A stretch of 64,000 nt of DNA from Clytia hemisphaerica. Its lineage: Eukaryota > Cnidaria > Hydrozoa > Leptothecata > Clytiidae. The DNA lies in the NCBI GenBank assembly GCA_902728285.1, contig CACVBU010000604.1, forward strand, positions 1-64,000. Reading direction: 5' to 3'. Under the pieces are notes generated by a model that had not been told where the DNA came from, did not search any database, and was given only the letters and a program-made list of their open reading frames with translations. Of the stretch, positions 7,201 to 30,709 are shown piece after piece. The position numbers and the translations under genes were made by a program. Every line of letters begins with the position of its first letter. Position 1 is the stretch's first letter.

Positions 7201-7239
7201 CATCAACTGAAAGTGGCTAAAAATTCAGCCAAATTTGAA

Positions 7240-9013: not shown

Positions 9014-9624
9014 AGTCAATGCATCTTGCATCTTGTCTACCAGCTTACCTTCAGCACATAGACGCTGAGTTACTTTTATATAAATTAATTTTAATTGATA
9101 ATTGTTTTTGAAAGCTAACCTTTCTCTTACATTACCTTTGCTACAAGTATTGGAATATTTTACCGGTAGTCCTGTTTGAGCTTTTTTCACACACTTGTAT
9201 TAGTAAATGTTTAATTGAAACTTGGCGATGGGGTAAAACTGCTACCCCCAAAAGGCCAAAATCAGGTACGTTGTTAATGTAGATCTTTTGCAGAATTACG
9301 TGGTTTAGTGTAAAAATGAGAAGTATATGGGTTTAAACTTTAAAGGATATCTTAACATAAAAGGCCTTGAGATGTGTAACCAAATTAAAATAAAACATAA
9401 CGCATTTTCTTGAAACGATATTTCGACCTCTTACGTGTCTTTCAAGTTTAAAACCTAATAAGATATTTTTAGCTCTCTAAAAAGTTCTCTACTCCCAAGG
9501 AAATTAAAGAAGTTACTCTGAAAAAATCAAAACCATTGCATTGTTCATATATTCATATCAATATATTTTCAATGTTCACTGTTTGGTGAATACAACGGTC
9601 TATTGAATATAAAATTACTACAAC

Positions 9625-10678
9625 CATAGTGTGCAAGGGGGTTCCAGGTCCCACCTGAAAATTCAGGTCCCACCTTATCCTAAAATTCCCACCTTCAGTC
9701 CAGACTCCCAGATCCCGGCTAAAAAGAAAAAAAATATACTAATTCGAGGAACAAAACAAAATTTCTTTACCGTAATATGAAGATGAAATATATTGTTCGT
9801 CAATATACGATTATGATTGTTAAAAATAAGAGCAAAAATATTTCTTGCATATTGTTCACATTATGTAAATCTAGTTTTTATCATTATTTTACTGTGGTAA
9901 TTATTCGTATATGTATAGTTCCATTTCTTACATTTTGGTGCTTCTCAAAATACCTTATTACACTTATATAACTACTCATGTTATTAATGCGAATTGCTTA
10001 CCTCGCGTTAATTACAAATGTTTATTTTCGAAAACCCTGCCTTTCGCGTTAATAAATTCTCGCACTCATTTTAACTCGGGTACCTAATAGCCGGGGGGTT
10101 TGGAATAAGCAGGGGGGTTGGAAAAAATCTCAAAATTTAATAAGCGGGGGGGTTGGAATAAAAATGTCCTGGGTGGAAAATGTTCGAAAAGGAGGCTGAT
10201 ACAGCAGAATTAGGGCAAAAGAGGTAACTTTCAAAAAAAATTTTCCCAAAAATCAATAAGCGTTGGAATAAGAATGTCTTGGGTGGAAAATTTCGAAAAA
10301 TTAATTAGCGCCCCCCCGGCTATTAGGTACCCGAGAGTAGTTATATAAGTGTAATAAGGTAAGCAAAAGTTAAAAAAAATCATTCTTAAAGATATTTATT
10401 CACACATCAAATGACCTGTAATAATAAAAAGAAAAGTTTAGCATGGTAAAAAATTATTTATGAAATATATAAAAAAAATATGTCATAAAATCTGAAAATA
10501 AGAAATTTTACTTTAATTTTTTCCAAAACACCCAAAGTCCCACCTAAAGAAATTAACTCCCACCTTAACTTGTTTCTCCCACCTAAAACCTGGAAAACCC
10601 CAAATCCCACCTGAAAATTTTCGACCCAAATCAACAAACCCCCCCCCCCCCACTATCTGGGGGGGGGTGCACACTATG
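9625..10678. mobile_element. CATAGTGTGCA-family transposon, complete, with nested insertion
   Basis: Termini CATAGTGTGCAAGGGGG and its complement (GGGGGGGTGCACACTATG) flanked by ACAAC (620-624 and 679-683 of the respective kilobases). Many TCCCACCT blocks occur near both ends, as in the copy at 62532. The interior contains the separate element at 10075-10335. No transposase. Confidence 0.75.
10075..10335. mobile_element. CTCGGGTACCTAATAGCC MITE (copy 1)
   Basis: 261 bp with terminal inverted repeats CTCGGGTACCTAATAGCC. The interior has repeated GGGGGTTGGAATAA and GTCCTGGGTGGAAAA units. A second copy lies at 53031-53297. Outside it, a perfect 27-bp inverted pair (about 9953-9979 and 10333-10359) shows it lies in a larger palindrome within the 9625-10678 element. 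Confidence 0.8.
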
Positions 10679-10798
10679 ACAACATGCATTACTTGCCCCC
10701 TTACTGATTTTGTTATTTCAAGATATTTTTTAAAAGTTTTACTCCTAACTTTTTGGACCTACCTCCAGGTACCCAGGTGGAGGTTCTATGAATTAACC

Positions 10799-11047
10799 CA
10801 CGTTCGTTCGTTCGTTCGTTCGTTCGTTCGTTCGTTCGTTCGTTCGTTTTTCGTTCGTTCGTTCGTTCGTTCGTTCGTTCGTTCGTTCGTTCGTTCGTTC
10901 GTTCGTTCGTCGTTCGTCGTTCGTTCGTTCGTTCGTTCGTTCGTTCGTTCGTTCGTTCGTTCGTTCGTTCGTTCGTTCGTTCGTTTCGTTCGTTCGTTCG
11001 TCGTTCGTTCGTTCGTTCGTTCGTTCGTTTCGTCGTTTCGTTCGTTC
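10799..11047. repeat. (TTCG)n microsatellite
   Basis: About 250 bases of CGTT repeats with a few single-base interruptions. Long reading frames on both strands (FVRSFVRS and NERTNERT repeats) are artefacts of the tetranucleotide repeat. Confidence 0.97.
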
Positions 11048-12750
11048 ACAATGATGCAAAATGGCAAGCACAAAATGTGACGGAGCCGATTTTTGAGAAA
11101 AAAATTATTTGGGCAAATTTGGGCCAAAACTACCTAAAAATAGGGTTTTTTAGACTTTGTGCAACATCCTGTTATTATTTTTTCTGATTTTTTTGTACAA
11201 AGATGGAGGGCAAGATTCTCTAAAGAATGACTGAAGTGGTTTTTCCGGAAACTTCTATTCACCTTAACAACGGATTCGTATTTTGGGGAAATTCCCTTTA
11301 ACCAAAATAAGAAAAATAGCTTTTCTCATGTTGACTCATTATTTTTTTCTGATTTTCTGCACAATGATGCAAAATGGCAATGCACAAAATGTGACGGAGC
11401 CCGATTTTTGAGAAAAAAATTATTTGGGCAAATTTGGGCCAAAAACTACCTAAAAATAGGGTTTTTTAGACTTTGTGCAACATCCTGTCATTATTTTTTT
11501 CTGATTTTTTTGTACAAAGATGGAGGGCAAGATTCTCAAAGAATGACTTTAAGTGGTTTTCCCGGAAAATTCTTATTCACCTAAAAAGGATTCTCGTATT
11601 TGGGGAAATTCTTTAACCCTATTAGCCCCAGCTTTTTGACTTTTGTATCCCCAGGGGGGGGGGGGGGGTAAATCTACCACCCTCGTTATTTTCGATCTAG
11701 AAGAGCTATGGCCATGAAATTTTGTACCTGTTCTCCATCATGAGACAATTTTCCAGGAAAAAAAAAATTTGATTACTCATTCAAAATGATTACGTCATCA
11801 CAAAATTTCCACCTGTCGGAAAAAAGCCCCTATATGGTTTACAAAAATGTCATTCAGTCGACCAATAACGATATGTCAATTATGTTTGAAGATTCTGAAA
11901 GATAAAAGACTGTTCTTTACATAATGCCTTTGCAAATTCAAGGAAGTTTTCTTTAAAATCTATGCTGAAGATGAGTAAAATTTTCAAAATTTGATGACGT
12001 CCTAATGAGATGTCATCATTTCAAAAATCTTCTTTGATTTTTAAATTTGTATTATCATGCCTATCCGTGTCAAAATTGAAATGATTGAATAAATAGTTTA
12101 GAAGTTAGCACTTTAAAATTTTGAGTTTTTAGCGATTTAAGCGGGTTTATCCCATGTTTCACTATAAAGTCATAAAACCTGATCTGGACAACCTCTGCCT
12201 AAATTTTGCACAAGTACTCTAATAAGATTTTATTAAAGTCAGAAGTTTCAAGTCGTTTGAAAAATTTTTCTCCGAGATATAAACAAAAGAACTCCAGCGT
12301 GGTAGATTCTACCCCCCCCCCTGGGGCTAATAGGGTTAACCAATAAGCAAATATAGCTTTTCTCAATGTTTGACTCATTATTTTTTTCTGATTTCTGCAC
12401 AATGGTGCAAAATGGCAATGCCTAAAATGTGACGGAGCCCGACTTTCGAAAAAAAATATATTTGGGCAAATTTGGCCGAAAACTACCTAAAAATAGGGTT
12501 TTTTTGGACTTCGCGCAAAATCCTGTCATTACTTTTTTCTGATTTTTTTGTACAAAGATGGAGGGCAAGATTCTCTAAAGAATGGCAGTGGTTTTTCCCG
12601 GAAAATTATTCTTCGCCTTAAAAAACGGATTTTCGTATTTTTGGGGAAATTCCCTTTAACCAAATAAGAAAATATAACTTTTCTCAATGTTGATTCATTA
12701 TTTTTTTCTGATTTTTTGCACAATGATGCATAATGGCAATGCCTAAAATA
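11048..12750. repeat. Tandem array of about 310-bp units, interrupted by a MITE
   Basis: Units repeat ATGATGCAAAATGGCAA, CAAAATGTGACGGAGCC, AAACTACCTAAAAATAGGG, GTACAAAGATGGAGGGCAAG and TTCCCTTTAACC. They start near 11050, 11360, 12395 and 12715. The long gap between the second and third units is accounted for by the insertion at 11617-12335. Confidence 0.8.
11617..12335. mobile_element. 719-bp piggyBac-like MITE (TTAA target)
   Basis: Terminal inverted repeats CCCTATTAGCCCCA / TGGGGCTAATAGGG flanked by TTAA on both sides (11613-11616 and 12336-12339). Sister units of the host tandem array read CTTTAACC without interruption, giving the empty site. TTAA duplication with a CCC start is the piggyBac signature. 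Homopolymer G and C runs lie just inside each end. Confidence 0.85.
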
Positions 12751-12759
12751 TGACCGAGC

Positions 12760-13510
12760 CCGATTTTCGAAAAACATTTTTTTCCGGCCGACAATGCCCA
12801 AAATATGCCGGAAATCGCCGTTTTTCTGAATTTTCATTGGTTGTTTCTTCATTCAAAAACATTATTAATAGCAATGCCCACCATCAAGCATGTTTCAATT
12901 TTCAAAAAAATTGATTTTTGAAGCCGGAACCATTCAAAAACCGCCGGAACAACCTATTTTCGCCGGAAAGACAGTATTTCTTGAATTTCTTGAGCTGTAC
13001 TTTATATTTTTTATAAAATTTTGCGCACTGATGCAAGATGACAAAAATGAGACGGAGCCAGAATTTCGAAAAACACTTTTTTCCGGCTGAAAATGCTGGA
13101 AATATGCCGGTAATCGCGGTTTTTGCAGAAATTTTCAATTGACTTTTTCCTTATTTCTTTGTTTTTTCCTTATTTCTTTGTTTTTTCACACAAAAACATT
13201 ATTGATAACAATGCTCACCATCAAGCATGATTCAATTGTCAATAAAACTGATTTTTGCGACCAGAACTTTCTATTAATTTTTCCCTACAACCCTTCCCTC
13301 TCCCCCCTAGACTTAAACTACGTCGTTGTATTTGCTGTAGATAAACTTGCAATAGGATCTATTTTTCTATCTGTTCACTGATCTTTCCAACCCACTCTCC
13401 TGCGGCAATTTCTATTTTTAAGAACTCTTTATTATAAGCACTATTCCCGCGTTCCTGTGTCCAAGGAAAGACAGACGCGTGCTAGTCTACTCTCCCCCCA
13501 TCAACAATCA
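12760..13510. repeat. CCGGAAAT repeat and unique flank (allele lacking the 2.9-kb element)
   Basis: Nearly identical to 13951-14701. Contains the CCGGAAAT dispersed repeat, then a segment ending CTACTCTCCCCCCATCAAC, followed by the empty insertion site and the ARFGAP exon copy. Confidence 0.7.
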
Positions 13511-13678
13511 ATGATGAATTTATTGCGTTATGCATTTTCGCTAAACGCTATATTTTTCCAACTGATTTTGTTCATTTTTTCCCTCGCATTGCTATCTAAC
13601 TTTCATCATCAGGTAGGTCCATTCAGCTCTAGCTTGTTACTCCAACTTCAAAAATGTTTTCAATGTTCGTATTTTTAG

Positions 13679-13792
13679 TCATGTTTGATTGCCGTGTGCT
13701 ACCCAAACTGGGCTTCAATCACCTATGGTGTTTTCCTTTGTATTGATTGTTCTGCTGTTCATAGAAGTCTGTGTCCACCTAACATTCATCAG
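13679..13792 (+). pseudogene. Second, indel-broken copy of the ARFGAP zinc-finger exon (probable assembly duplicate)
   Basis: This 114-base stretch repeats the 119-base exon at 17776-17894 but is five bases shorter. Several single-base indels, some in short homopolymers, break the frame, while the splice-site context and flanking intron (13511-13949 versus about 17598-18056) are nearly identical. It directly precedes the N at 13950. Scattered indels in otherwise near-identical sequence look like unpolished long-read gap filling or an unmerged second haplotype rather than an evolved pseudogene. Confidence 0.75.
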
Positions 13793-13949
13793 GTGGGTTG
13801 TTTATGATGTTTACAGTTTTAATCATATGCCTTTGGTCATGAAAATAATACATGTCTGGTTTTTTAAATATTTTAATATTTGAAACTAGAGGTTGCTAGA
13901 TAATTATTGTAGCTCATTGGGATCATATACAGTTTCTATTTTGAGGGTC

Positions 13950-13950
13950 N
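13950..13950. other. Assembly gap or contig join (single N)
   Basis: The only ambiguous base in the window. The 750 bases before the exon copy (about 12760-13510) are repeated directly after the N (13951-14701). The 440 bases just before the N (13511-13949) recur at about 17598-18056. The join therefore appears to place two overlapping versions of one locus in series. Confidence 0.85.
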
Positions 13951-15697
13951 AAATATGACGAGCCCGCTTTTCGAAAAACTTTTTTTCCGGCCGACAATGC
14001 CCAAAATTGCCGGAAAATCGCCGTTTTTCTGAATTTTCATTGGTTGTTTTCTTCTTCCTCATGTCAAAACATATTAATAGCAATGCCCACCACAAGCATG
14101 TTTAATTTTCAAAAAAATTGATTTTTGAAGCCGGAACCATTCAAAAACCGCCAGAACAACCTATTTTCGCCGGAAAGACAGTATTTCTTGAATTTCTCGA
14201 GCTGTACTTTATATTTTTTATAAAATTTTGCGCACTGATGCAAGATGACAAAAATGAGACGGAGCCAGATTTTCGAAAAACACTTTTTTCCGGCTGAAAA
14301 TGCTGGAAATATGCCGGTAATCGCGGTTTTTGCAGAAATTTTCAATTGACTTTTTCCTTATTTCTTTGTTTTTTCACACAAAAACATTATTGATAACAAT
14401 GCTCACCATCAAGCATGATTCAATTCTCAATAAAACTGATTTTTGCGACCAGAACTTTCTATTAATTTTTCCCTACAACCCTTCCCTCTCCCCCCTAGAC
14501 TAGTAAACCACGTCGTTGTATTTTGCTGTAGATTAAACTTGCAATAGGATGTATTTTTCTATATGTTCACTGAATCTTTCCAAACCACTCTCCTGCGGCA
14601 ATTTCTATTTTTTATAAGAACTCTTTATTATAAGCACTATTCCCGCGTTCCTGTGTCCAAGGAAAGACAGACGCGTGCTAGTCTACTCTCCCCCCATCAA
14701 CAATCAATGTAGACTATGTTATAGTCTAAGACGAATCACTATCTAAGAAAAAAGCCCAAAGCCGAAGAAAATTCGCAAACGGGTTCTTTTGCCGAAAAGA
14801 GTTAACAGTCGGTAGATTTGCCAGTCTTAGACTATACGATTTTGGTACAAAATACAAAAACAGCCCAAATCGTACGAATTCGAGTTTCCGTATGCAAGGC
14901 CAACTGTGTTCGGTATTCGAAAAAATCAAAACAAAAAAAAAGAGGCGGGAGAGAAACTGAGATAAAAAAAGAGGGATTCCAAGAAATATTATAGTTCTCT
15001 TTGGAGACCCTCTTCCTTTTATTCCCTCTATATTTTCTTGGAACTACACTTTCTTTTCTTAGAAAACAATTTTTATAAACAGTAATTTTTTTAATAAGTT
15101 TGTAATTTCTTTGCAACAAGGATATCTATCTAACTTTCACCTTATAATTTCTTAAAAAACATCAAATCATGTAGTTTGTTTGTATGTTGTTTTTTTTGCC
15201 TGAGATTATATCCTTATATTTACCCCTTTTATATATTAAAGTCCATGTAAATAAAAGCTATAGTATATTCTCCCCACTACCATTTGCCCAAGACAAAGGA
15301 TATGTATCAACATTGACAGTTTTATATAAATACTTGCAATTTCGAATTTGTGACCTTCTGTTTTGTTGATAAAAAATTTTACAGTAGTGGATGAAAAATC
15401 TTATGATAAATTTTCAGGGAAAAAGTAAAAAAGCTCCAGCTTGTAAAGCTTTGCAGTATGTTGATCTTGCTTTGATTTGAGCTTGAATTTCTTCTAACCA
15501 AAAAGAGACGTTAAAAATGAGGATGAAATGGAGAAAAGTTAAGAAATCCCAGAAATTAGCTTAAAATGGAAAAGTACCATTATAAAAACCTTGAGGCAGA
15601 TTTAAATGACATTAAATTTCTTATTTACAAAAACTGATAAATAGGTAATTCAATCATGATAACAAATGATTCTAAACTGTCTTCCGACAATACTGTA

Positions 15698-15988
15698 CAC
15701 GTTTTTTTATTATAAGGAACACATTTATAAGGAACTCGAGGCTGAAAATGGTTCAAAAATAGGAATTGTTAAGGAACTGCTCAGGCTGAGAATAAGTGGA
15801 TTTGAAAATAATGTACCTTATTGGGACTAATTTGACCAAATTTTGATCTTTCAAGGGGCAAAAAGTTCAAAATTTCCTATGTAGTAAGGAACTCGATAAG
15901 GAACTTTGAGACTGAAATTCTCTGTAAAAATAAGGAATAACTCCAGGCTCAGAGCAAAGTTAAGGTTCCTTATAAAAAAAACAACGTG
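15698..15988. mobile_element. TA-flanked MITE nested in the 2.9-kb transposon
   Basis: This 291-bp element has termini CACGTTTTTTTATTATAAGG and, inverted, CCTTATAAAAAAAACAACGTG, flanked by TA on both sides. A second, nearly identical copy lies at 43865-44153. TA target sites suggest Tc1/mariner-type mobilisation. No coding capacity. Confidence 0.75.
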
Positions 15989-16029
15989 TATTACAGTCTC
16001 GACTAATTCCAGAAGGCTGATGTAAATTT

Positions 16030-16760
16030 TTCCAATTCATAATCTCAAATTATATCAGGACGTCAAGTGAAATAAATGTTGGTGAAATATTCCAACTCAT
16101 AATCTCAAATTGTACCAGGACGTCAAGTGAAATAAGTTATAATTTCAATTTATACCAGGGCGTTGGTGAAATATTCCAAGTCATAATCCCAAATTAAACC
16201 GCGACGTGAAGTGAAATATTCCAAGAAATAATCTCAAATTTGTACCAGACACCAGAGCGTCAAGTGAAATATTCCAAGTTATAATCCCAAATTAAACCAG
16301 GACGTGAAGTGAAATATTGCAAGTCATAATCTCAAATTGTACCAGAACGTCAAGTGAAATATTCCAAGTTATAATCCCAAATTAAACCGCGACGTGAAGT
16401 GAAATATTCCAAGAAATAATCTCAAATTTGTACCAGACACCAGAGCGTCAAGTGAAATATTCCAAGTTATAATCCCAAATTAAACCACGACGTGAAGTGA
16501 AATATTCCAAGTTATAATCTCAAATTGTACCAGGACGTCAAGTGAAATATTCCAAGTTATAATCCCAAATTAAACCACGAAATGGAGTACGTGGAGTGAA
16601 ATATTCCAAGTCATAATCTCAAATTGTACCAGAACGTCAAGTGAAATATTCCAAGTTATAATCCCAAATTAAACCAGGACGTGAAGTGAAATATTGCAAT
16701 TTATAATCTCAAATTATACCAGGACGTCGTGAAATATTGCAAGTCTTAATCTCAATAATA
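16030..16760. repeat. Minisatellite of about 46-bp units
   Basis: At least a dozen diverged tandem units built around GAAATATTCCAAG, TAATCTCAAATT or TAATCCCAAATT, and a GACGTCAAGT or GACGTGAAGT block. Some adjacent units alternate between two subtypes, suggesting a higher-order dimer. The array lies wholly inside the 14710-17595 transposon. Confidence 0.85.
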
Positions 16761-17775
16761 AACCAGGATACTGTGCCAAATATTTCATTTCTGTATTGTG
16801 CTCTCTGCAAATTACTGCCATATTTTCCCATGCATCCAATTTCTGAATTTCTGATTCTTACCTAGAAAATTTAGAATAATAATCTGATAATTTTTACAGG
16901 TCAAAATGAGAAAATGTGAAAGTTTTCAAACAAGAAGTATGTTAAAAGCAGTCCATAATTGACAATAAGTACTTTGTTTGACATTTTTCAAAGTTGTCAA
17001 AGAACTGCTAACACAAGATGAAAATAACCTTTTAAGAGTGGAGATATGAGGGTATTCACATATCTAATGAAACACTGCCTGTGATTCATAGGATTCATAA
17101 GAAATATACAAACTGACTTACCTACTTAGTTTCTCTGTGTCTTTTTGCTGTATGTAGACTTGTTGAAAAATCATTTTAAAACAGCTTCTACAGAAGCATA
17201 CTTGAGGAATAAGTACTCCCTTAAACTAAGTTATCTTGTAGTCTCAATAAAACAAATGAACCAAGAAGAAAAAATCAATAATGAGCTGGATTTTCACAGA
17301 AAAACCATAGATCCATCTTGTCCTTGTGTCTCTTCCCAGTGACCAGCGTGTTTTTGATCATTTGAACCTGTTTGAACCAAGCTCGGCCTTTAAACTTAGG
17401 CGGTTTTCACCACGGATCGACTAACCAGTCTCACTGGTTAGTCCAAGCAAAACCGCAAAATCTTTTTTATGCCAAAGAGTTATCGTCCGTTTCTTCGAAA
17501 CCCTCCCGCCGATTTTTTCCCGTATACCGCCATAACGCCATACCGCCATATTTTCCCGCCTTTACTATCACTGTAACGGACGATAACATCGTCTACAATC
17601 AATGATGAATTTATTGCGTTATGCATTTTCGCTAAACGCTATATTTTCCAACTGATTTTGTTCATTTTTCTCCTCGCATTGCTATCTAACTTTCATCATC
17701 AGGTAGGTCCATTCAGCCTCTAGCTTGTTACTCCCTAACTTCAAATGAATGTTTTCATTGTTTCGTATTTTTTAG

Positions 17776-20700
17776 TCATGTTTTGATTGCCGTGCTGCTA
17801 ACCCAACTTGGGCTTCAATCACCTATGGTGTTTTCCTTTGTATTGATTGTTCTGCTGTTCATAGAAGTCTTGGTGTCCACCTAACATTCATCAGGTGGGT
17901 TGTTTATGATGTTTACAGTTTTAATCATATGCCTTTTGGGTCATGAAAATATATACATTGTCTGGTTTTTAAAATATTTTAATATTTGAAACTAGAGGTT
18001 GCTAGATAATTATTGTAGCTCATTGGGATCATATAACAGTTCTATTTTGAGGGTCAAATTAAAGTGTTTGAAAAAAAGAAAATTATTAAAAAGGTCCCTG
18101 TTTATTTCCTTATATACTATAAGCTCGACATTAATTATGTACGTAAGGCGAGACCAATTTAGTTTGTTGTTCTACGGGCCCGACCGACCCTATTTTTGCT
18201 AAAATCAAAAAAATAATAATATTGAATTTCCACTACAATATATTTTACACACTAGTTATTTGTAAGAATCAAATTTGAATAAAGCTGAAAATTAATTTAA
18301 GAAATTGAAAAATTTAGAAAATCAAGCATTCCATACACTAAGATTTTATCATGATCTTCATCGAAGATAAAAAGGTGAATTTTTGAACTAGATATTTTTT
18401 GGAAAATATTTTCGGTACTTTAACAACCCTGATAAATGAAAAATTTATTTTTATTTTTCCGACCGACCGACCCATATTTTGCTAACGATCTCCCCGTAGA
18501 ACAACAAATTAAATTGTCTCGCCTAACTTTATTTCAAGATCGACACAACTTGATGGAAAATGGACGTGGCTTCAATTGAGACACATGCAATGTGGGGGCA
18601 ATGCCAAAGCAGTAAGTCTGACATTTTCATCAATTAAAGTCTTGCCAAAATTCAAATGTAATAACATTATTATTAGTAAAATTTGCTCATGATAATAATC
18701 ATAATCTCTTCCAAATTAGGTATAATTATTTTTCAGGTTATACGCCTTGTGAGCTTTTGCTGTACTTCATGCTTTACTTATCAATTTTAGAATGCATTTT
18801 TTCGACAACACAATCTCACAACAAGTGATGCAGGTGTCAAATATAAAAGGTATGCATTGTAAAGCTTTTGAATTCTCTCTGATTTTCCATGTTCAAGCTG
18901 GTTTCAAAAGTCCTTTGAAAGAATAATTTGCTCAATGAATTTAATTTAAAATCGATGCCATCGCCATGGAAGGAAGAATGGGAAATTTTAAGTAATTTTT
19001 CTTTTTCAACCATTTGGTGGCTTTCAGCTGTACTGGGAGTGAGGGAGTTTATCCCCTTTTCTATTTCCACTATACTTGGGTGATTGAATATGTGTTTGTG
19101 GGTGTATGCTCTACCTACTGAGCTATGCAATCAATTTTATTCCCATTTCAGTCGTGTTGCAAGCATGTATCGAGACAAATTATCACAGTTAGCACAAAAA
19201 GCGATGAAAGAATACGGGACTTCTACAGTGAGTTTTAAAATCTCGTTTTTGTGTAATAAAACTAGATTTTTTAAAGACCAAAAAGTTTACTTATTCCCTT
19301 GGCTTTTGAGTCCATATTAATTCTGATAAATAAATGTAACGTTGACTGTAACATTAAAATTTGTTTATTCAATTCTTCATCTCAAAGCACAAAGTACAAC
19401 GTCCTTACAGTAAATGTGAATTATTATTTTTTTAAGATGAAGCTTGTCGAGATAGGGCTAGGATATTATAACCTCTTGACATCTTTTTAACAACTTCCTC
19501 ATCCAGTTGAACATCGATACACATGCGCATGGACCAACAACTCCTGAACAAAAAGAAATCGACTTCTTCCAAGATATAGAGACAACTTACACTGCTGTTC
19601 CAGCTTCAGATTCACCTTCCATTGCTGCCAAAAATGCGAAAAATAGTGCAGGTAGAAAGTAGAAATGTTAACTATTGGGTTTACAACCAGTTATATTTTA
19701 ATAGAAATAAGACTTTCTTTTTATTATGCCCACTGCACAATAACCATTTTTTACAACTATCCTTAAAGATCTATTGTCAAGACCTTCTTTGTTTTATAGC
19801 GGATCCGAATCTCGATGTTGGTCATATGAGCACTTCACCACCTAAAAAAGGTAAAATCTACGGTTCTATATGGAATAAAATAGTCGCTCTAAAGGCAATG
19901 TAATCGTTGTTCAGCTAAAGAAAGCCTGAAGAAACTAAATGCAGGTATTCTTACTTTAAGCCTTGGTAAGTAATCAGTTTTTATTTTTAGATATGTTTCC
20001 AGTAGATGTTCTATATTAGAGCTAAATTTTGATCAATTTCAGAGGTTCGACAATCGACCATTGGCGGACGAAAACCTGCTCCAAAGAAGAAAGGAGGTGT
20101 AAGTAGTGCCTTAAATTGCTTATTCAGTTGACTTTGATATTCTTAATAATGTTGTTGTCATTATCTGCTGAAGACATGAGGAACATGGAGCTAACCATAC
20201 CTGAAAAACAATCATTAGTCGATACTAAGTTGAACATTTTCATTTCATAATATATTTTACTTTTTCAGCTTGGTGCGAAAAAAGGTGGACTCGGAGCTAC
20301 ACGAGTAAGATATCTTCTGGCTTAGCAATGTGAAGTGAGACAAATAATTTCCTATGATGCCTTTAATGTTCAGAAGATAACGAAAAAGTGAAAAAGTCTT
20401 TACTATCCTTTTTGATTAATACTGAGATTGGATATGTCAGAGTAAAGAGTGGAAATTCTTTTTAATAGACCTTAGTAATCATGTCAGTTTACGTCCATAT
20501 TATTTTATAGAGTTGCAGGTTTCTGCATTGTTTTTTTTTATCTTTGCATGGACTGTTTTTCATGCATACTTGGTTATCTTATTTTTACAGACCAAAGCAA
20601 ATTTTTCAGCTATTGAAACTGAAGCTCAAGAAATGGACAAAATGAAGGAACAGACTTCTATAGCGACTGCAACACCAACTTTTGATGAAATGAGTGACAA

Positions 20701-23700
20701 GAAATCTCCATCTACACCCGAAGATGTCCCACTATCCTCCTCTCTCATGTATAAGTCTTCTTCTATGAAAAGAGAAGAAGAAAAATTGAAAAATTCCGAC
20801 CCGAAGAAAGCAGCACAACTTGAACGGCTCGGGATGGGATTCGGTAACAGAACGTATGTTTTACCGCTTAATTTGTTCTGAAATTTTATTCGTATCTTTG
20901 AACAAGTGAAAATTGTTTTTGGATTTTGAAAAAAAATTCATACATCTCCATACAGCCTTAAAAATTTGAATAACTTTTGTTACCAGCTGCTATTTTCGTC
21001 ATGTTTTTTTATTGCTCTTAAATTATGGGGTGAAAATTAAGTTACCGGTATTTTTTCGAACAAACCTTGCGCTTCTGGCTGAATATTGTGCATGAATGAC
21101 AAAGTAATAATGTTCTAAAGATGTTTATACTTTCTTCAGCAATATTTCACACTCGATGGCAGACAGTATGCAATCCGTGGAGCAAGTCCGACCAGATAAT
21201 GAAACACGCAAGAAAGACTACTATCGATCCAATTCACCGACTGGTGATGGTTTCTTTGACAGGTAATTTAATGCTGCCTTGTTTTAAATATCTCAATTTC
21301 TTTTTGTTTTGAATTAATACTTAGTTCTGGTCCCTTGTTTAACTATATAGTGGTGAAGATTTTGCGAAATATCGTGATTCCCAATTTGCAGGGCTTTATA
21401 AGCTTAAATCTTGAATATGGCTGTTTTGATAGGGTAAAATTAATATGTTATTTAACTGGAAAGTAACCAAACAAATCTCCTGAGTGAATAGAGTTGGAGA
21501 GAAATTCTTTCTTCACATATACAATATCTGTGTCATCAACTCTCCTCTTGATTTTAGTTTCGATCGATATGGAAGCGACAATTCTAGAAGCTTGACTGAA
21601 GAACCACCAAGGTCAGTTTCTAACTAACATACTTTAATGGGATAAACTTTCGCGGGGATTAAATTTCGCGGTTGGGTCTCTCCGCGAAATTCAAAAATTT
21701 CGCGGGGACTTAATTTCGCGGGTGGCACTATTGGGTGTCAATATTTTCACGATTTATGACTTTCACTGTCAAATCATACATGTTGGTTTGTTGAAATACA
21801 CATTATTTGCGCCTCTTTGATGCAAGTAACCATTCAAAAAGTATTTATTTGACATATTTTGAGTTTTGTTTAGGAATATTTCGCGGATCAGGCCCTTCCA
21901 AAATTCCGTTGGGACTTAATTTCGCGGATTTTCGCGGATGACACCCAAATCCGCGAAATCCGCGAAATTCAATCCCCGCGAAATTTAATCCCCGCGAAAG
22001 TTTATCCCATTAAAGTATCTCGTTTCTAACTTTCTGGTGTAACTACCCCTTCTTTGCTACATTTTTACGTGAACATGAACATATAAACGACTGGTCATCA
22101 TCTTTGTTGCCGCCTGTATGTCAAATTCGATATTAAAAATCCAACAAAATTCCGCTGCTTCATTTAATTTTGCATTTATACAGCTTGGAAATTGCTTATT
22201 TTTCGCAAAAATATCTTCTCAACCTTTCTCGTAAGTTTACAAGAAATTTTATGTATACTTTTGAATCGTTTTCATCACTGGAGAAAGCCTGTGTTATGCC
22301 TCTTATCTTTCTCACAACGTTAGCAAAGTATTCCTCCCCGGAGGTATTATCATAAGCCCATTGTTTCATTTTCTGATTTTAACGTGGTGGCAACGAAACT
22401 ATGATAGCTTTCTACAATAATAAAAAGTAAATGGACGTCCAGTCGTTTATTATGTTCATGACGGAGGCCCGGAATCTTTGAGTTAGAAAACTTCGAGTTA
22501 GCTAACTCGAAAACTTGTGAGCGAAAAATAAATTCCGAGTTAGCTAACTCGAAAAAAGGTTTTGTGAAAAAGAAATTCGAGTTAGCTAACTCGAAAAAGT
22601 TTTTTCGAAAAATAAAATTCGAGTTAATTTTAACTCGAAAAATATTTTTTGAAAATAAAAAATCGAGTTAGAGTCGAGTGGCGTCATAATTTGCACTTTT
22701 ATGACGTCATAATTTAGCTAACTCGAAAATTCCCAACTCGAAAATCGCTAACTCGAAGTTTTCTAACTCGAAGATTCCGGGCCTCTTCATGACGTACTCT
22801 AATTCTGGAATAGATAAATAGATATGCCCTCCGATGCATCGGAATGGGTCCTACCCACGGTGGAGTAGGAATCACAGCGCAAGCAGACATTGCAACCCTG
22901 CAGATGCGAGCTGCCGAGCCATGGGACACTCGAACTACACGGAAGAACGGATGTCCTCGCAGGTGTAGAACCTCCTGAGTGTCACGGCACACCACAATGT
23001 CTGAAATATTTACCCATACTCTCGTATCAGAGTTATGGTACCCAATTCCCCTCACATGGCATGGGTTGACCCGGGCGAAGGAGCATTCACTTGCCAAGTG
23101 AATCGTAGTGCCACGGTGGGTATCGAACTCGAGCCTCCTGGACAGAAGTCAAGCACGATAACCACTACACCACTACGCCTGGAATAGTCCCTAAGTAACT
23201 AAGAGATTTTTTCATTACTTTCATATAACAGCTACGACAATCGATTTTCATCAAAAAGTGGTGGTTGGGGCCTTGAAGATATGTCTAACAGGTAAAGTTT
23301 CTTTGACATGGTGTTTTTTTGGAGGGTTGTTTCAATAGTGCTATCATCAGCTCTCTATACCAAGGTTTCCTGGATCAAATTTCTGTTCCGTTCGCCTCGT
23401 CGATTCGACTTTTATAATTTTATGTGGACGTGGAGGATATAACATTTTTTGGAGTTTAGAATTCTGACCCCCAGACAACCAGTTAAACCCCCCGGACAAT
23501 GGAGCTTTTCTTCTCGAATGTTTGTTCACCTGACTATTTCTTTATACACCTGGAGCCGGACACCCCCATGTACAAACATTTTTTGGAAGAACTCGTTCGA
23601 CTTGTGAAATTAGGGTGAATTCAAAACATCTTTTAAGAAAAAATTGCTACTATAATTATCTAAATCAATGCTTTTAAGAAAAAAATTAGGAAATCCATGC

Positions 23701-26700
23701 TTTCTAGAATATTAATTTCTTTCTGGACTTCTACCAATTTTCTCAGCACAATTTTCATTTCACTTGAGATTTTTTGGTTCTAAAACTCCGAAATATACAG
23801 ATATTAGGCAAAAATGATTCCCATGGATTATATTTTAAATCAATTTTTATTTATTTATTACTTACTTACTCTCCACTAGCAATAAAACGTACAAATCGGA
23901 AAGAGAAGACAGTTACAGCAGGTAAGCACTATTCATTATAACCAAGCAGTGTGGATGGAGTTTATTTTTTAAAAGTCAGTCCTCTTACATTTATGTAGTG
24001 ATTTTGTTATAAAACTTTACTGCTTTTTATTCTGTTATACAGTCGGTCACGGTCAAGCAAACCAAGCAGCACTTCAACGTACTCGGAAACACCTTCTGAT
24101 GGTAAGCCAAATTGCCAAGCTACGCCATCTCTTGCACTACAATTTTTGAAAAAGTTCCTTCATAAAAGATTTTTTGTACTTTTTGTACTGTACGATGCTT
24201 TCTGAATTGGTATTTTTACAATATTTGCCAACCCTGATATTCGATTCGCAATGCATGAGTAATTTAGTTCTTCGTAATCTGTATCACGAGCAATGGGTCA
24301 TTCCCGTCTGTTTCGTTTCAAAGCTTTGCGTTTTTCAATCTTTTGAGAAATGTTTCTGTAACGTTCGAGGCTTTGGAGATATGTAATGACTAATGAATCT
24401 TTTTTCAATTTTCCAGCTGACTTTCAGAAGAAATATAGCGGTGCAAAAGGAATCTCATCGGATCAACTGTTTGGTACAGGATCTGTAAGTTGTCACTTGT
24501 TTTTCTTTTACGTCCTCAGAAATCCAATCGAAGTCTCGGATTTTCAATATTTTTGAAAGTAATGTGTGCGTGGGCGTGTGCTTTTTATTTTGGGTATCGT
24601 ATTCCTTAATTGAATCTGCAATCCTTCAAGCCTAAAAACAATATTAAAGGACACAAGCCTGTTCAAATGAATTGAACGCACTTCTTTTCAGAAGGCAGGC
24701 CATCATGAACATTAGCACCCGTTTTTCTCAGCCCCAGACACATCTAAAATAAGAAAACCTTTCTATTGATTGACGTGGTAAAAATGTCAAAATTGTCAAC
24801 ATTCAAAACGATTTTAGTCATAACTATTTTCTTGGAAGAGGAAATTTAATTAAAAGTCGTAGGAAACTACTTTGACAGAGCCACAAGTGCGTCATTTAGT
24901 TACTATGGAATTTTAAATTAAGAGCAAGCTACCTCAATATTGATATCAATGTTTTAGAGGTCTAGAGTAAAATAGTGAAAAGGGGTAAAAATTTAAAAAC
25001 CTCAAAATTGTCTTATATATTTTGGATAATAACAGGATGAGAACAACTTTAGGCTTTAATCGCATAAAATAGTGAGAACAACCGAACCGTCAACAAAAAT
25101 GTACTGGTCCTTGTAACAAAAATAGTTTTATTAATTTCGCTTAGCGAAAGTATTACGATAGCCTTTCTGCGGCGGTGTCCTCGGAAAAAAATTAGAAAAC
25201 GAAAGTGTTGATACGGTGGACGAATTCACTAAATTTAATTTACAAATTACACGCTCGTATAGCCACGGACGATTTTCGCGGATTTTCTTTGGATTACGTC
25301 ATATATCTTTGTGTCTTTAGCTCCACAGTTTTGATTTTTTCTTTATTTTCTTATAAGCATATACTTTATAAGAATCAAATCAATAACTCTTGATAGACGG
25401 TAATATACCTTTCGGTAATTAGTTCTTACAAAGTAAACAAGGGATGGCATACAATATGAGCTTACTTATTTTTCTTATAAGCATATATTTTATAAGAATC
25501 AAATCAATAACTCTTGATAGACGGTGATATACCTTTCGGTAATTAGTTCTTACAAAGTAAACAAAGGATGGCGCACAATATGAGCATATTTATTTTTCTT
25601 ATAAGCATATACTTTATAAGAATCAAATCAATAACTCTTCATAGACGGTGATATATAGCTTTCTGTAATTAGTTGTTCCAAAGTAAAACAAGAGATGGCG
25701 CACAATATGAGCATATTCAATTTTCTTATATAAGCATTTGCTTTATAAGAATCAAATAAATAACTTTTGATAGACGGTGATATTACCTTTGTTTATTAGT
25801 TCTTAAAAATTAAACAACAGTTGTTCTTAAATTGGTCTCTTTTTTAGCGATTTTAAGCCTCGTTGTTCTTGTAAAATTGTTTCATCAAGGCTCGATGTAA
25901 AGTAGATTTCAAATTGGCTTCAATCTCTACTTTTTGTTTTTCCTATGTAGTTTAAATTCTAGGCGAAATTTTCGACTTTAAGTCGTCTTGTTTGTATTCA
26001 TAGTCCTCTTCCTTTTTTGTTACAGAGCGACTCAACGAACGACAGGTTAAATCAATACTCTGGTTCGCAGGCTATTTCAAGTGCTGATCTTTTCGGTGAT
26101 GGGCGAAGTAATGGTATGGACTAGTTAAATTTATTCCTATATTGTCAACAACTACCCACCCACCCTTTTGGGCCTTTACTGAATTGGATGAATTATAAAA
26201 AACTACAGTTGACTGTAATTCTATTCGATACGCTCAATTTTTCGATAATATTGAAAGTCATCGTCAAGAAGAAACTCTCATAAAGGACGCTCTACTATTC
26301 GATGTAGTCCCTTTTTCCATGAAATCATATTCCTCCTGAAAATCGAATTAGAGAGTGTCAACCGTACTAAAAAAATACAGACGAATTATACCGATTAATC
26401 GTCAGAGAGGTGAATCACGCATTAATCTCTATGAATACGGGATTACAAACACTCGCGATAATCTTTTCACTCCTACACGTCATTTCAATTAACAGATTAA
26501 CGATTACTACAAAATTAGAGGCATTTTAAAACATTAAATCCCGTTGTAAAAAGAAACCAATTTTTAAGGATAAATTGAGACTTTTGGGTTGAATTTCACC
26601 ATTTCGCAGACTTATTTTTGCAGATTACAATGTGAAATTCTTTCTCCAATTGGGAAACCTTTTAAGAAGAAAGCATTTTTAATTACTTTTCTACACCCAC

Positions 26701-28238
26701 ACTTATTTTTAAATCATTGTCTTGATGAGCAAAAATAGGTTTTCGTTCTGTTAAGTAAGAAAACAACCGTTATCTTATATCGAAACGCCCCCTTTAGCTT
26801 GTGTGTAACACACATTATCCTTTCAAAAATATTTCAACCATGTTCCTATTACAATTGGGTTTATACAGCTCCCTACCACACCCGACTTCAAATTGTTCTG
26901 CTAGAGGTCTTCGTCTAATTACGCTAATTCCTTTCTCTCTCCTTAGGCGCAAGTGGACGGACGGTAGACTATCAAAACCTGAAAGACAGTGTTTCGAACG
27001 TCACTGGAAAGGTAATTTGTGAGTTTGATTTTGAGACCATTACAGAGAGTGGGTTGGTTTAAAGAATTCTGAAGTGGACTTTAAGAACTAAAAGAAAGTC
27101 ATCCCTACCTACCCGTAACCTGTATTTGGGTTGTGTGCTCTAGATAATCTGCCATTGTTATTTACCAAGAATAATTTCAACGAGGAACTATGCCTCCAAT
27201 ACATCTAGTCTTTCCTGGCCTTAAAGTTTGAAATTAAACTGCTTCTACCTATGAAAACACATTGACTTTCATTCAAACCATAGTTTTTTTTAAGTTTTAA
27301 ACATGTGAAGTGAAGACCTTTAAAGTTTTCCGAAAATCAACAGAATTTGTGTTGAGACGGTTTTAAACGAAGATAATTACGTATGATTATTTTCGGACGT
27401 TCTGAGATTTTTGATGCACACTGATTACAAGGCCACTCTAATTAAAGAAAACTGATTTTGGTCTCTTTTAATTTCTTTAATAGCATCTTTTGCAATACCG
27501 CTAAAAATCCCATTAAAAGGTCAATCGAAATCGTTTATGTCAAATTTTATTTTACTGTCCTTCCAACCGAGATTGGCAGCACTGTTATTGGTTTTTCGGG
27601 GAGGAAACTTGTCTCATATTACTAAAACTGTTGACAGTCTAAAAACAGTTCCATTTTGAAATGAATTATGAATTATGTCATTCCCCCTTTTTTCTTTCCC
27701 TGACTTTTTTGCATTACATGTTGTAACAAATACTTTTTATGATTATAATATAAGTCTCTCTGCTACCTCTTGCAAAAATGTTGTTCTACAAACATCAAGT
27801 ATCATAAGGTCTCAAAATCTAAACACAGCTTGAGAGCTCCTTAAAATAAACACTCACAAGATTTCACATTCAGGTTCTAATCCATAGAGGACATTGAAAA
27901 CGGAGAAATCTCTCTCTAATTTGAAACTCTGAATCGAATCAAATGGAAATGGTGAAAATTAACCCCTTTTTACATAGCGTCAAAGAAATAAACCCCTTTT
28001 TACACAGCGTCAAAGATAAGTGTCATTCCTTAATTGGCTTTCGTTCAGAATCCAACAGGATTTCGTTGCCTTTTTGAGGCGGTTATCATCGGTGATTTAA
28101 TTCGATTACAAAATTTTCTTTTCTCGACCTATTTTTATTTTGATACTCCTGTTTTTTTTCATCTTTCAGCTTTCAAGTATGGCTTCAGGAGTGATTGGTA
28201 GCCTACAAACGCGTTATAGTGGGTCTGGAAATTATTAA
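17776..28238 (+). CDS. ARFGAP2/3: ARFGAP2/3-type Arf GTPase-activating protein (5' exon missing)
   Basis: GTPase-activating protein for Arf1 on COPI-coated Golgi membranes. Exons inferred from GT-AG sites with matching phases: 17776-17894, 18539-18611, 18791-18849, 19152-19227, 19507-19651, 19800-19850, 20043-20098, 20269-20304, 20591-20853, 21140-21262, 21558-21611, 23232-23291, 23880-23921, 24043-24101, 24417-24484, 26026-26113, 26947-27011, 28170-28238. They sum to 1506 nt, 501 codons plus TAA. The first exon encodes the ArfGAP zinc finger C-x2-C-x16-C-x2-C (CFDC...CIDC), followed by [12 protein letters not shown] with the catalytic arginine. Later exons give a Lys/Gly-rich block ([17 protein letters not shown]) matching the coat/cargo-binding region of ARFGAP2/3, an RLGMG motif, and C-terminal repeats GISSDQLFG and [10 protein letters not shown], characteristic of the Glo3/ARFGAP2/3 subfamily. 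About 25 N-terminal residues are absent; their exon was not found in the window. Family assignment is very secure; ARFGAP2 versus ARFGAP3 is not resolved. Confidence 0.94.
18147..18523. mobile_element. MITE with TAA target duplication ending next to an ARFGAP exon
   Basis: Terminal inverted repeats GGCGAGACCAATTT... and ...AATTGTCTCGCC continue for about 33 imperfect bases (both arms contain TTGTTGTTCTACGGG or its complement). TAA flanks each side (18144-18146 and 18524-18526), the 3-bp signature of PIF/Harbinger elements. The right end lies 15 bases upstream of the ARFGAP exon at 18539. No coding capacity. Confidence 0.7.
21632..22015. mobile_element. TA-flanked MITE, CTTTAATGGGATAAACTTTCG family
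   Basis: 384 bp with about 40-bp terminal inverted repeats starting CTTTAATGGGATAAACTTTC and containing CGCGGGGATTAAATTTCGCG. TA flanks both ends. It starts 20 bases after the ARFGAP donor at 21612, inside the intron. The interior repeats TTTCGCGG motifs in both orientations. Confidence 0.8.
22068..22794. mobile_element. TA-flanked MITE interrupted by a second MITE
   Basis: Outer element in the same ARFGAP intron. The left end CGTGAACATGAACATATAAA matches the inverted right end, which is split by the insertion at 22464-22785, and TA flanks both sides. Subterminal arms contain GTTGCCGCC and GGTGGCAACGAA. A related, more decayed copy occupies 38411-39075. Confidence 0.65.
22464..22785. mobile_element. 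322-bp MITE with 9-bp target duplication
   Basis: Terminal inverted repeats begin GAGGCCCGGAATCTT and continue through GAGTTAGAAAACTTCGAGTT. A perfect 9-bp duplication TTCATGACG occurs at 22455-22463 and 22786-22794. The interior is a series of CGAGTTAGCTAACTCG palindromes. The start of the window (about 1-90) looks like the tail of a related element ending GGGAATTCCGGGTCTC. Confidence 0.82.
22814..23178 (-). mobile_element. tRNA-derived SINE (minus strand)
   Basis: Read on the minus strand, it starts with a tRNA-like head (A-box-like TAGTGGTGTAGTGG, B-box-like GAGTTCGATACCC), then a core shared with the SINE at 31637 (GTGAATGCTCCTTCGCCCGG, then GGTCAACCCATGCC and GTGAGGGGAATTGGGTA). It then carries a longer body and a short A/T repeat tail (ATCTATTTATCTATT). 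A 9-bp direct repeat CTGGAATAG flanks it (22805-22813 and 23179-23187). It lies in an ARFGAP intron. Confidence 0.8.
23425..23595. mobile_element. Relic of the GGGCTCTTCCAG C-rich MITE family
   Basis: A worn copy resembling the elements at 52143 and 56488: GTGGAGGATATAACATTTTT, several CCCCCGGACA or CCCCCAGACA blocks, then CACCCCCATGTA and TTTTTTGGAAGA. The terminal repeats are no longer well matched. Confidence 0.5.
25330..25830. repeat. Tandem repeat, four units of about 125 bp
   Basis: Each unit contains TTCTTATAAGCATATACTTT, AATCAAATCAATAACTCTTG, TAGACGGT and ATGGCGCACAATATGAGC. Units begin near 25345, 25470, 25595 and 25720 with increasing divergence. The array sits in the ARFGAP intron before the exon at 26026. 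Just upstream (25140-25200) is a CGAAAGTATTACGATAG segment shared with 49352-49430, so the array may belong to a dispersed element. Confidence 0.75.
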
Positions 28239-28257
28239 CGGTGTTGCTTTTATGTGG

Positions 28258-28263
28258 AATAAA
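28258..28263 (+). promoter_or_regulatory. Polyadenylation signal of the ARFGAP gene
   Basis: AATAAA lies 20 bases after the ARFGAP stop codon (28236-28238). It is the first canonical signal downstream and suggests a very short 3' UTR. Cleavage was not verified. Confidence 0.6.
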
Positions 28264-29370
28264 GAAAATTTGATGTTCATAATTTATTATTTTAGCAAAA
28301 TGTATTAATTCTTAATCAATATACGAACTAAGTACATTTTTGTTTCAGTGAAGAGAGTGGAAGGGAACAGTTTTTTTGCAATGAAAACTACTTTTTGAAA
28401 ACAGAAGCCTTTTTGTGATAATCTTCAATAAGGAAAAGTTGAGGTTTCCTTCATTCTTCATCATTTTCCTTTGTAGTTTAAAGGCTTTCTCTCTTTTTTT
28501 CATTTTCTAATGATTTTTTTGTAGCAAATGAGATTTTTGCTTCTAATGATTTTTTTGGTTTATGAGTCGAAGAATACTCATTACATTAATAGAGATGTTC
28601 AGAAAGTGAGAATGATAGACTTTGAGTGATATATTATTTTAGTAAATTTTTTTTGGATTTGATTATTTTTTTGGACACATAGCCTAACACCTACTTTCAA
28701 CTTTCCATTCATAAATCTTCGCATAACAAAAAATTACTGGTATATTAAAATTATTTGAATGAGTTTTGAATTAAAGCTACATAATGTGCAACTTAATTGT
28801 TTCGTCCTTTGGCTAAAATTTTTATTGTATTTTGAAAATGTAATATTTTGAACGGGCCTGTGGATCTTTTCTATTTTTGCTCCCAACCCTTTATCAGAAT
28901 CTTCAATCTTATTTTAAGTCATTTTATTTTAGATTATTTAGTTACTAATAGGAAATTTTAATTTTTTCCATTTATGTATGACAATATGTAAGACCAATAC
29001 TTCATCGTATTCTAATTTTTTTTTTGTTAATTAAAAGTGAAAACGAAAATGCCCTTTAGGATTAAAAAGCTGTTTTCCTATCAGCTTTGACAGTGAGTGA
29101 AATTTTGGCTCCTTATAAAAGATTCACAAAATAGTTCTAATACTTATTTTGTTTACAATGAAATTATGAAAGGATTTTAAAAGAAACCCAAATCTAATGA
29201 ACTCGATTTTTTAAAGTCACCCCCCTGCTATAGGAATTCTCATATTTTTTCCTCTTTTTGTAATGGAGAAAAAAATAACTTGAATAAATTATTATATTGA
29301 ATAATTTCTTTATTTGTTTGTCCTTCATAATTTTATTTCATCCTTTATTTCGCCCCTCCTGAAGACTTTT
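28264..29370. other. Intergenic, no gene recognised
   Basis: AT-rich sequence between the ARFGAP polyadenylation signal and the 29371 transposon. I see no coding domain, RNA or repeat here. Confidence 0.5.
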
Positions 29371-29853
29371 TAGACTAGTAAACTAGTCGTTGAAAACAGA
29401 CCCATATACAAAAAATCAAGCTCCAAATAAAAAGAATCGAAGGGGTGAAGTTGCGTCTCTTTTCTGAATTTCAACGACTAGAAGCTACTTCCCTCAAAAA
29501 ACGTTGTTTAATTTTGCAACTTTTTTTAGGTTTTTGAGAATCCATCCAACTTTTTTGACTAAATGATATTTCATAGTAACATTGAACATGGGAACATATA
29601 AATAAATGAGCATTTCTAAAAACGCAATAAACAGAAAGAAAAATAAATGAAATCCCGCACGGGTCAGACATACAGAAATCTGTATGTCTCTCCTTACGAT
29701 TTTAGGTGAAGAAAAAAAGGCGTTGGAAGTAGCTTCTAGTCGGTTATTTTCCTTTTCTCTCACGTGCGCTGAATATTTAATTAGTGTTTACATTATTTGA
29801 TTGACAGTTTTATTATAAGGTTATAAGTAATAACCGACTAGTTTACTAGTCTA
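29371..29853. mobile_element. 483-bp TAGAC hairpin-terminus MITE
   Basis: The ends read TAGACTAGTAAACTAGTCG and the complement. A perfect 9-bp duplication AAGACTTTT flanks it (29362-29370 and 29854-29862). Each end is itself a palindrome (GACTAGT-AA-ACTAGTC). A second inverted pair (GACTAGAAGCTACTTCC and complement, near 29475 and 29735) lies further in. The first five bases, hairpin layout and 9-bp duplication match the 14710-17595 element. Confidence 0.82.
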
Positions 29854-30709
29854 AAGACTTTTTTGAATATTCCATTTTATCAAAAGCATTTCCCGAAATA
29901 GATCATCGTCTTTTATTACTTTTGATAATGAACACCATAGCTAAAATGTGTTGTTGTTTTTAGCTGGAGAAGCTAAAGCTTTTTGGAAAAATCTTGAATT
30001 TGCAAACGTCGGCAGAGTCGCATCTTGACGTTTTAATGTTTACTTTGGGCCGGTTTCGACGTTTCAAGGAAGACGTCGTCAGTTTTCTTACGTCACTCAA
30101 TTATGCAACGGAAAGTTGAGTTTCAAGTTTCTAATTCTTAAAACATGCGTCAAAATCAGGTTTGTATTTTCTTCCAATCAGTTTCGCTTATAACCTGTTT
30201 CTGAACCATCCTTAATTTGTCTACAAAATGTCATTTTGTGATTTGTGATCATTTTATCATTCCCAGCGAAAGATCTCGAAAAAGCTCGTGGACTGTTGTT
30301 TGTGTACTGTAAGAATTTATTATGACAACGTAACAGTTTAACTCTCTTAATCCTTATTCAAATCATCTTTAAGTTTGGTTTTATGAATGGAAGTTGAGAT
30401 ATATTAATTTAGATTAGTTTACACCTTTAAATTCAAAAATCTTTACGTGTGAGAGGGTGAGAAAATAGCTTAGATACAGTGCAACTGTCAGTTGCTAGCA
30501 ATCAACACAGCATGAACATTATTCACTCAAAGTCAAATACAAGAAGAATTTACCACATTAAATGTATTTATGAAACCTTTGATCGTATTTTACAATTATT
30601 TTTGGAATGACCTAGGAAATTAGCTATAAAAACAGTCAACTATTAAAAAATTTTCTAGTATTTCTTCTGGTATTATATAATATAGTCTGGTATTGACAAC
30701 ATGTATGTA

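Follow-up and report, generated by a model that had tools for sequence, protein, structure and literature searches.

The window analysed here is a 64,000-bp stretch of the genome of the hydrozoan Clytia hemisphaerica (positions 1–64,000 of contig CACVBU010000604.1, in the 417-Mb, 951-contig assembly GCA_902728285.1). It contains three transposons, E1, E2, and E3, whose ends start TAGAC. E1 occupies 14710–17595 on the plus strand (2886 bp) and is flanked by a perfect 9-bp target-site duplication (TSD), CAATCAATG, at 14701–14709 and 17596–17604. Each end continues as a palindrome, whose two halves we call arms 1 and 2: the left end reads TAGAC-TAT-GTT-ATA-GTC (palindrome GACTAT-GTT-ATAGTC, 14712–14726, plus strand) and the right end TAGAC-GAT-GTT-ATC-GTC (GACGAT-GTT-ATCGTC, 17579–17593, minus strand). 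E2 (29371–29853, plus strand) is a 483-bp element resembling a miniature inverted-repeat transposable element (MITE). Both of its ends read TAGAC-TAGT-AA-ACTA-GTC, with the palindrome GACTAGT-AA-ACTAGTC at 29373–29388 (plus strand) on the left and at 29836–29851 (minus strand) on the right, and its 9-bp TSD, AAGACTTTT, lies at 29362–29370 and 29854–29862. The coordinates, palindromic ends, and perfect duplications of E1 and E2 had been reported in the initial annotation and were exact on re-examination; E3, an empty E1 site, and a third arm at each E1 and E2 end are additional to it.

Pairs of TAGAC and GTCTA in the window (55 and 37 occurrences, spacing 60–20,000) were scored for flanking duplications. 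A perfect 9-bp duplication flanks E1 and E2 and no other pair. Perfect 10-bp duplications were found in three pairings: E3 itself (14496–14685, plus strand, 190 bp, duplication CTCTCCCCCC, imperfect hairpins), a second copy of it at 13308–13489 (plus strand), and the cross-pairing of the two. The second copy belongs to a duplicated locus. The segment 12746–13949 duplicates 13951–14709 plus 17596–18061, the flanks of E1 being joined around a single target copy, and one N at 13950 divides the two locus copies. Their alignment of 1237 columns has 1161 identities, 16 mismatches, and 60 gap positions. The first copy contains E3 but lacks E1, and CAATCAATG occurs in it once (13505–13513, plus strand). 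This is thus an empty site, and it shows directly that E1 was inserted whole, duplicating 9 bp of its target. Because gaps outnumber mismatches, 12746–13949 is probably an unpolished second haplotype set beside the first; if so, E1 may be heterozygous. That one locus copy has E1 and the other lacks it hints, together with the near identity of E2 copies across the genome, at recent activity.

The genome searches scored the best 40 candidates for each element, so that copy counts are lower bounds. At least 40 full copies of E2, that of the window included, show 98–100% identity. E1 has at least five full-length matches, the window's own and four at 90–91%, besides many partial ones. About 40 matches to E3 were found among those scored, some of which run into identical flanking sequence and are not independent copies. 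TSDs were counted where both flanks were present (omitting one-end loci such as L006, L008, L066–L070, L081, L083, and L084; L and C numbers denote loci and contigs). The duplication is exactly 9 bp in 11 of 13 E1 copies (one has 8 bp and one none) and in 32 of 39 E2 copies (five have 8 bp and two none); pooled, 43 of 52 copies carry an exact 9-bp TSD and 6 of 52 an 8-bp one. Of the two E2 copies scored as lacking a TSD, one has a 9-bp repeat with a single mismatch. The second, L073 (C107:20256–21225), lies within E2-like sequence with inverted flanks, forming a large palindrome that is either a fold-back product or an assembly effect. For E3, a script placed 12 of 20 loci, with seven duplications of 9 bp, one of 10 bp, one of 7 bp, and none at three. 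All 50 of the 9-bp duplications of E1–E3 are different, indicating varied target sites, with a mild preference for G at position 1 (22/50) and C at position 9 (20/50). Nine-base-pair TSDs also flank members of three further families described below, E4 (L103, L138), E5 (L130, L131), and E8 (L133, L135). A fixed-length TSD at independent sites and an empty site with one target copy are the marks of cut-and-paste transposition, and both are present here. A scan of viral contigs for the E2 end returned none.

The palindromic end is abundant. The E1-type pattern, TAGACNATGTTATNGTC, occurs at 732 places in the genome against 1 for a reversed-pattern control, the E2-type pattern, TAGACTAGTAAACTAGTCGNTNA, at 575 against 0, and TAGACTBGNNNNCVAGTC, in which one pair is free and the E2 stem is excluded, at 498 against 4. 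The free pair allows a count of pairing. Among the 100 listed of the 732 E1-type ends (632 lie outside the list), it is G-C in 58, T-A in 30, and not Watson-Crick in 12; the 88 paired ends compare with 50.8 expected from the column make-up. For the third pattern, all 100 listed ends (398 lie outside the list) are Watson-Crick at the free pair, where nine combinations are possible, 82 being G-C and 18 T-A. Reading 38 rarer ends and ten further stretches yielded families E4–E8, with stems GACTGGC/GCCAGTC, GACTGG/CCAGTC, GACTTGT/ACAAGTC, GACTA/TAGTC, and GTCTAGC/GCTAGAC. Partner ends were located through the repeated 9-mer and proved palindromic, with further stems, in four end types: GACTGGC-AC-GCCAGTC for E4R (L103), GACTAG-CAAA-CTAGTC for E4L (L138), GTCTAGC-AT-GCTAGAC for E5R (L131, L130), and GACTA-GTA-TAGTC for E8R (L133, L135). 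With the exception of E3, all end types start with TA, followed by a palindrome with a 2–4-nt loop and a stem that varies by family; left and right palindromes differ in E1, E4, E5, and E8. The TAGAC start that the initial annotation took as general holds for E1, E2, and E3 but is not universal: in E5R the A-T pair of GAC, constant elsewhere, is inverted, and the end begins TAGTC. The central stems, TAGT/ACTA, TTGT/ACAA, TGGC/GCCA, TAT/ATA, and GAT/ATC, vary from family to family but keep their complementarity. When arm-2 halves were shuffled among the 14 end types, none of 100,000 shuffles paired as well as the ends themselves, and the result was the same for the 12 unique types. The test ignores kinship and includes end types retrieved with a pattern that specified part of the palindrome. 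The transposon group proposed in the initial annotation is therefore a multi-family one, E1–E8, with 9-bp TSDs (in E1–E5 and E8) and hundreds of end-pattern places against 0–4 in controls. Its idea that the palindrome is kept while the bases change holds between families, where stems stay complementary; within families, ageing copies decay independently. Of the observations it had named as counting against it, a lack of further copies and duplications of other than 9 bp did not occur, and independent mutation of stem positions was seen inside families only.

Repbase groups non-autonomous elements by equal TSD length and at most one mismatch over terminal positions 1–11 (PMC4455052, in excerpt). 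Applied by eye, this rule places E2, E3L, E3R, E4L, E6R, E7R, E8L, and E8R within one mismatch of the E2 end, and leaves E1L, E1R, E4R, E5L, and E5R beyond it.

At all four E1 and E2 ends, arm 2 and an extension of it are repeated, inverted and exact over 13 nt, 73–91 nt further inward. This third arm lies at 14824–14836 (plus strand) in the left end of E1, pairing with 14720–14732, and at 17479–17491 (minus strand) in the right end, pairing with 17575–17587. In E2 it lies at 29469–29481 on the left (TTTCAACGACTAG, plus strand; inverted repeat of 29383–29395) and at 29736–29748 on the right (AATAACCGACTAG read inwards, minus strand; inverted repeat of 29829–29841). Arm 3 is also found in E4R (11 nt), E5L (12), E5R (10), E6R (14), and E7R (13), with spacers of 48–79 nt. 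An exact 10–14-nt inverted repeat of arm 2, 48–91 nt inside, is thus present in at least one copy of 9 of the 14 end types; those without it, E3L, E3R, E4L, E8L, and E8R, come from source elements of about 190–235 bp. The extension is private to each end, even between the left and right ends of E2 (GTTGAAA and GGTTATT), and its partner covaries. For the nine end types, the own-end match of 10–14 nt compares with a mean of 6.4 nt for the arms of other ends, a mean that a few related or overlapping pairs exceed. Across 2700 shuffled inner stretches the match averages 5.6 nt and never exceeds 11. Folded as single strands of 113–129 nt, the four window ends form the arm 2–arm 3 stem (z = −2.8, −3.0, −3.8, and −1.6), weakly for the right end of E2, where 14 of 200 shuffles fold equally well. 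The outer 24 nt of the same ends fold into the small terminal hairpin, so that the predicted arm 1–arm 2 and arm 2–arm 3 pairings compete for arm 2. Changes across E1 copies provide weak evidence that arm 3 is conserved (left arm 3, 0/195 against 42/1364 in the spacer; right arm 3, 5/156 against 43/968); the comparison is confined to arm 3 and the spacer, as the loci used were fetched in part by the exact end pattern.

Two explanations of these patterns do without a fold that matters to the transposase. In the first, each end is a two-fold symmetric site, bound as duplex by a dimeric transposase domain; no hairpin forms, and arm 3 is an extra half-site. The outer half-sites, GAC(T)/(A)GTC, are indeed near constant, arm 3 is a further instance of the motif, oriented like arm 1, DNA transposons often have such subterminal repeats, and E3 retains the outer GAC/GTC despite its poor centre. 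A fixed protein site does not predict, however, that central stems vary by family yet remain complementary, nor that the arm 2–arm 3 match extends past the shared motif in a sequence that differs at nearly every end. We consider this explanation rather unlikely. In the second, the arms are copied during movement or repair, by fold-back priming or by hairpin-closed ends opened off-centre, and there is no selection on structure. Ends with arm 3 hold a private arm sequence three times, as self-templating would give, and the inverted arrangement and inverted flanks of L073 can be read in the same way. Copying should also spread into the 48–91-nt spacer, but the spacer is unrepeated and the arm borders are sharp; moreover, the outer hairpin persists, E3 excepted, in end types without arm 3. 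Arm copying is a serious rival to structural selection, though on balance an improbable one.

Because the variable central stems and private extensions fit poorly with a fixed duplex site, we rank structure-assisted recognition first. We suggest, with a probability of roughly 0.5, that these elements represent a new end design among known non-autonomous DDE-type transposons, in which folding assists recognition of the ends; that the fold matters is inferred from covariation. One DDE-type transposase, supplied in trans, would make 9-bp staggered cuts; it would identify an end both from a short motif (TA, GAC/GTC) and from the capacity of the strand to fold. The terminal hairpin and the longer arm 2–arm 3 stem would most likely be alternative folds used at different steps, possibly binding or pairing of the ends in one case and cleavage in the other. 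A stronger version, which we advance only tentatively, is that the transposase of this clan reads its ends mainly by DNA shape, as a hairpin or cruciform that switches to a longer stem with the third arm. If so, left and right ends, and likewise the families, could diverge freely in sequence while the three arms stay mutually complementary. The selection on structure proposed in the initial annotation thus draws support from the covariation between families, and is weakened by the arm-copying alternative and by the degenerate hairpins of the abundant E3 family.

Several observations weigh against structure-assisted recognition. The E3 hairpins have only three consecutive outer pairs, and 24-nt E3 ends do not fold into the terminal hairpin, yet E3 copies have 9-bp TSDs. 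Arm-3-less derivatives (L077–L080, L065) also have 9-bp TSDs. The complete end plan is therefore not indispensable: with degenerate hairpins in E3 and many copies without arm 3, neither the hairpin nor arm 3 is strictly required. Among distinct ends with at least 130 nt of sequence, arm 3 occurs in 39 of 81 E2-stem ends, 10 of 13 E1L, 7 of 15 E1R, 2 of 5 GACTTGT, 1 of 4 E4R, 1 of 2 E5L, 2 of 2 E5R, and 0 of 2 E8R, and is thus often lost; its representatives were picked after their sequences had been seen, and for E4R, E6R, and E7R they are one locus each. In a 140-nt fold, the right end of E2 forms the small hairpin, not the arm 2–arm 3 stem. Inside families, pairing is lost without compensation, as at L074, L076, and L121 and in the 12 of 100 listed E1-type ends unpaired at the free position. 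Copies share descent, leaving few independent stem changes, and the 100 ends of the third pattern fall into three stem groups (GGC..GCC, GG-GAAT-CC, and TTGT..ACAA) rather than representing 100 independent events. The search pattern that retrieved E5L, E6R, E7R, E8L, and the L137 copy of E4R itself contained part of the palindrome, and partner ends were read with palindromes in mind. At L110 and L106, the sequence beside the repeated 9-mer is not palindromic; we read these as lost or degraded ends. It is the two non-palindromic partners and the single-locus arm 3 in three end types that keep our confidence at the level given for fold-assisted recognition, and lower still for shape reading. Finally, a single transposase for the whole group is a presumption: among the loci read, which take in a minority of the 732, 575, and 498 places, there is no transposase or coding member.

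The full-length copy encoding a transposase for which the initial annotation proposed a search is likewise absent from the loci read. E1 is taken as non-autonomous, as no stop-to-stop frame of 120 aa or more lies within it. Its interior contains a minisatellite (16082–16768) with a 45-bp unit and a 188-bp higher-order unit and, at 15696–15991, a nested repeat unrelated to E1. This repeat, of about 296 bp with TTATAAGGAAC close to its termini, has a copy at 43863–44156 (97%) and belongs to a different MITE-like family. The E1 relatives at L059–L062, examined as autonomous candidates, have no frame over 138 aa. A 6.5-kb element on C20 (136500–143045; L129, L123, and L085) has E4R and E4L ends and a duplication with one mismatch (CTATTCATT/CTATTCAAT), but no frame over 113 aa. 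It contains a 124-bp tandem array, and the E2 copy of L015 is flanked by roughly 1.5 kb of the same sequence, in stretches of 1035 bp (96%) and 508 bp (94%); the C20 element appears to carry captured host DNA rather than a gene. L130 (C20:122350–123966), at first taken as a single element with two end types, consists of a 392-bp E5 element with duplication GGTGTTAGA, followed by a 202-aa frame and a separate E6-type end. By eye, this frame looks like the terminal part of a LINE reverse transcriptase. On C745, a 122-aa frame that is integrase-like by eye has no Pfam match at E 0.001 and lies outside the 143-bp element there, and frames of 139–147 aa in stretches of C851 and C248 lie outside the short elements.

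Transposons reported with 9-bp duplications include Mutator-like elements (MULEs, 8–11 bp) and Rehavkus (9 bp; PMC6446971), and AcademH (9 or 10 bp; PMC10045372), the papers being cited here and below from excerpts. The elements could be ordinary MULEs of the Mutator superfamily whose ends are palindromic by chance. As the initial annotation noted, the duplication length agrees: the E1 and E2 TSDs of 9 bp, sometimes 8 bp, fall within the range of 8–11 bp (PMC6446971). MULE domains occur at 91 places in the genome, and the host DNA apparently captured by the C20 element is reminiscent of Pack-MULEs. Membership is not established, however. Proximity was assessed against 243 listed ends (E1-, E2-, E4-, E5-, and GACTTGT-type, with E3 excluded) on contigs up to C130, and none of the 12 MULE-domain matches there lies within 10 kb of a listed end. 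The MULE loci on C662 and C254, two of the 91 places, show no TAGAC ends with a TSD. We regard MULE membership as a possibility worth keeping in view, at less than even odds.

A second possible home is the AcademH lineage of Academ transposons, or Rehavkus. AcademH reportedly occurs in animals and fungi, to judge from the title of Kojima (2020). Its TSDs of 9 or 10 bp (PMC10045372) fit those found here, and Rehavkus combines 9-bp TSDs and a transposase with a PHD finger with a minisatellite before the 3′ terminal inverted repeat (TIR; PMC6446971). E1 matches Rehavkus in TSD length; its minisatellite is internal, over 800 bp from the right end, and Rehavkus is reported, in the excerpts of that source, from insects and annelids only (PMC6446971). 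Neither the transposase nor the helicase of Academ was found here, and the loci read offer no transposase for comparison. The Pfam family DUF6589, tried on a guess as a marker, occurs at 105 genome places; on contigs up to C130, 1 of 17 loci lies within 10 kb of a listed end (at 9.1 kb). At the two DUF6589 loci read, matching ends are absent; the one look-alike string (L139:580) has neither palindrome nor duplication. An AcademH or Rehavkus origin is accordingly doubtful. Several DUF6589 places have long frames (610–626 aa) and pairs with identical score, and DUF6589 is possibly an uncharacterised mobile gene family.

Among known systems, MULEs and the foldback elements grouped with them, Tm1 of root-knot nematodes and FB4 of Drosophila, share with the elements here TSDs of about 9 bp (8–11 bp) and many non-autonomous members. 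Unlike here, the excerpts of their descriptions contain no covarying terminal hairpin or third arm; the TIRs of Tm1 are largely tandem-repeat arrays and those of FB4 about 700 bp long (PMC3169594, PMC8277862, PMC6446971). The left and right ends of E1, E4, E5, and E8, in contrast, have little in common except TA, GAC/GTC, and the fold. IS200/IS605 elements also have terminal hairpins, which matter for their movement (PMC3627910), but make no TSD. Among the published systems that we found, Helitron2 comes nearest in fold design; in it, a terminal hairpin competes with a second pairing partner and shows compensatory changes (PMC3627910). Helitron2 elements are rolling-circle transposons with a 5′ hairpin, asymmetric ends, and duplications that vary from about 7 to 19 bp or are absent (PMC3627910), whereas the elements here have the same inverted plan at both ends and a near-fixed TSD of 8–9 bp at varied targets. 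The E1/E2 group thus lacks the Helitron2 combination of a 5′ hairpin, asymmetric inverted repeats, and no fixed TSD, and a Helitron2-like rolling-circle origin is very improbable. In the titles and abstracts surveyed we recognised no description of covarying terminal hairpins in transposons with 9-bp duplications, without claiming their absence from print.

In the usual view, DDE transposases recognise their ends by sequence, in duplex DNA. The hundreds of natural ends with pairwise stem differences offer ready data on the question of whether a eukaryotic transposase recognises structure, and the three-arm plan leads to a testable switch model. The covarying ends also provide an annotation handle for unclassified MITEs with 9-bp duplications.

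Elsewhere in the window, two frames on the minus strand at 39874–41299 match heme peroxidase (Pfam PF00141), one above and one below the curated cut-off, and are probably exons of one gene. A CGTT tandem array of about 62 copies occupies 10801–11047.

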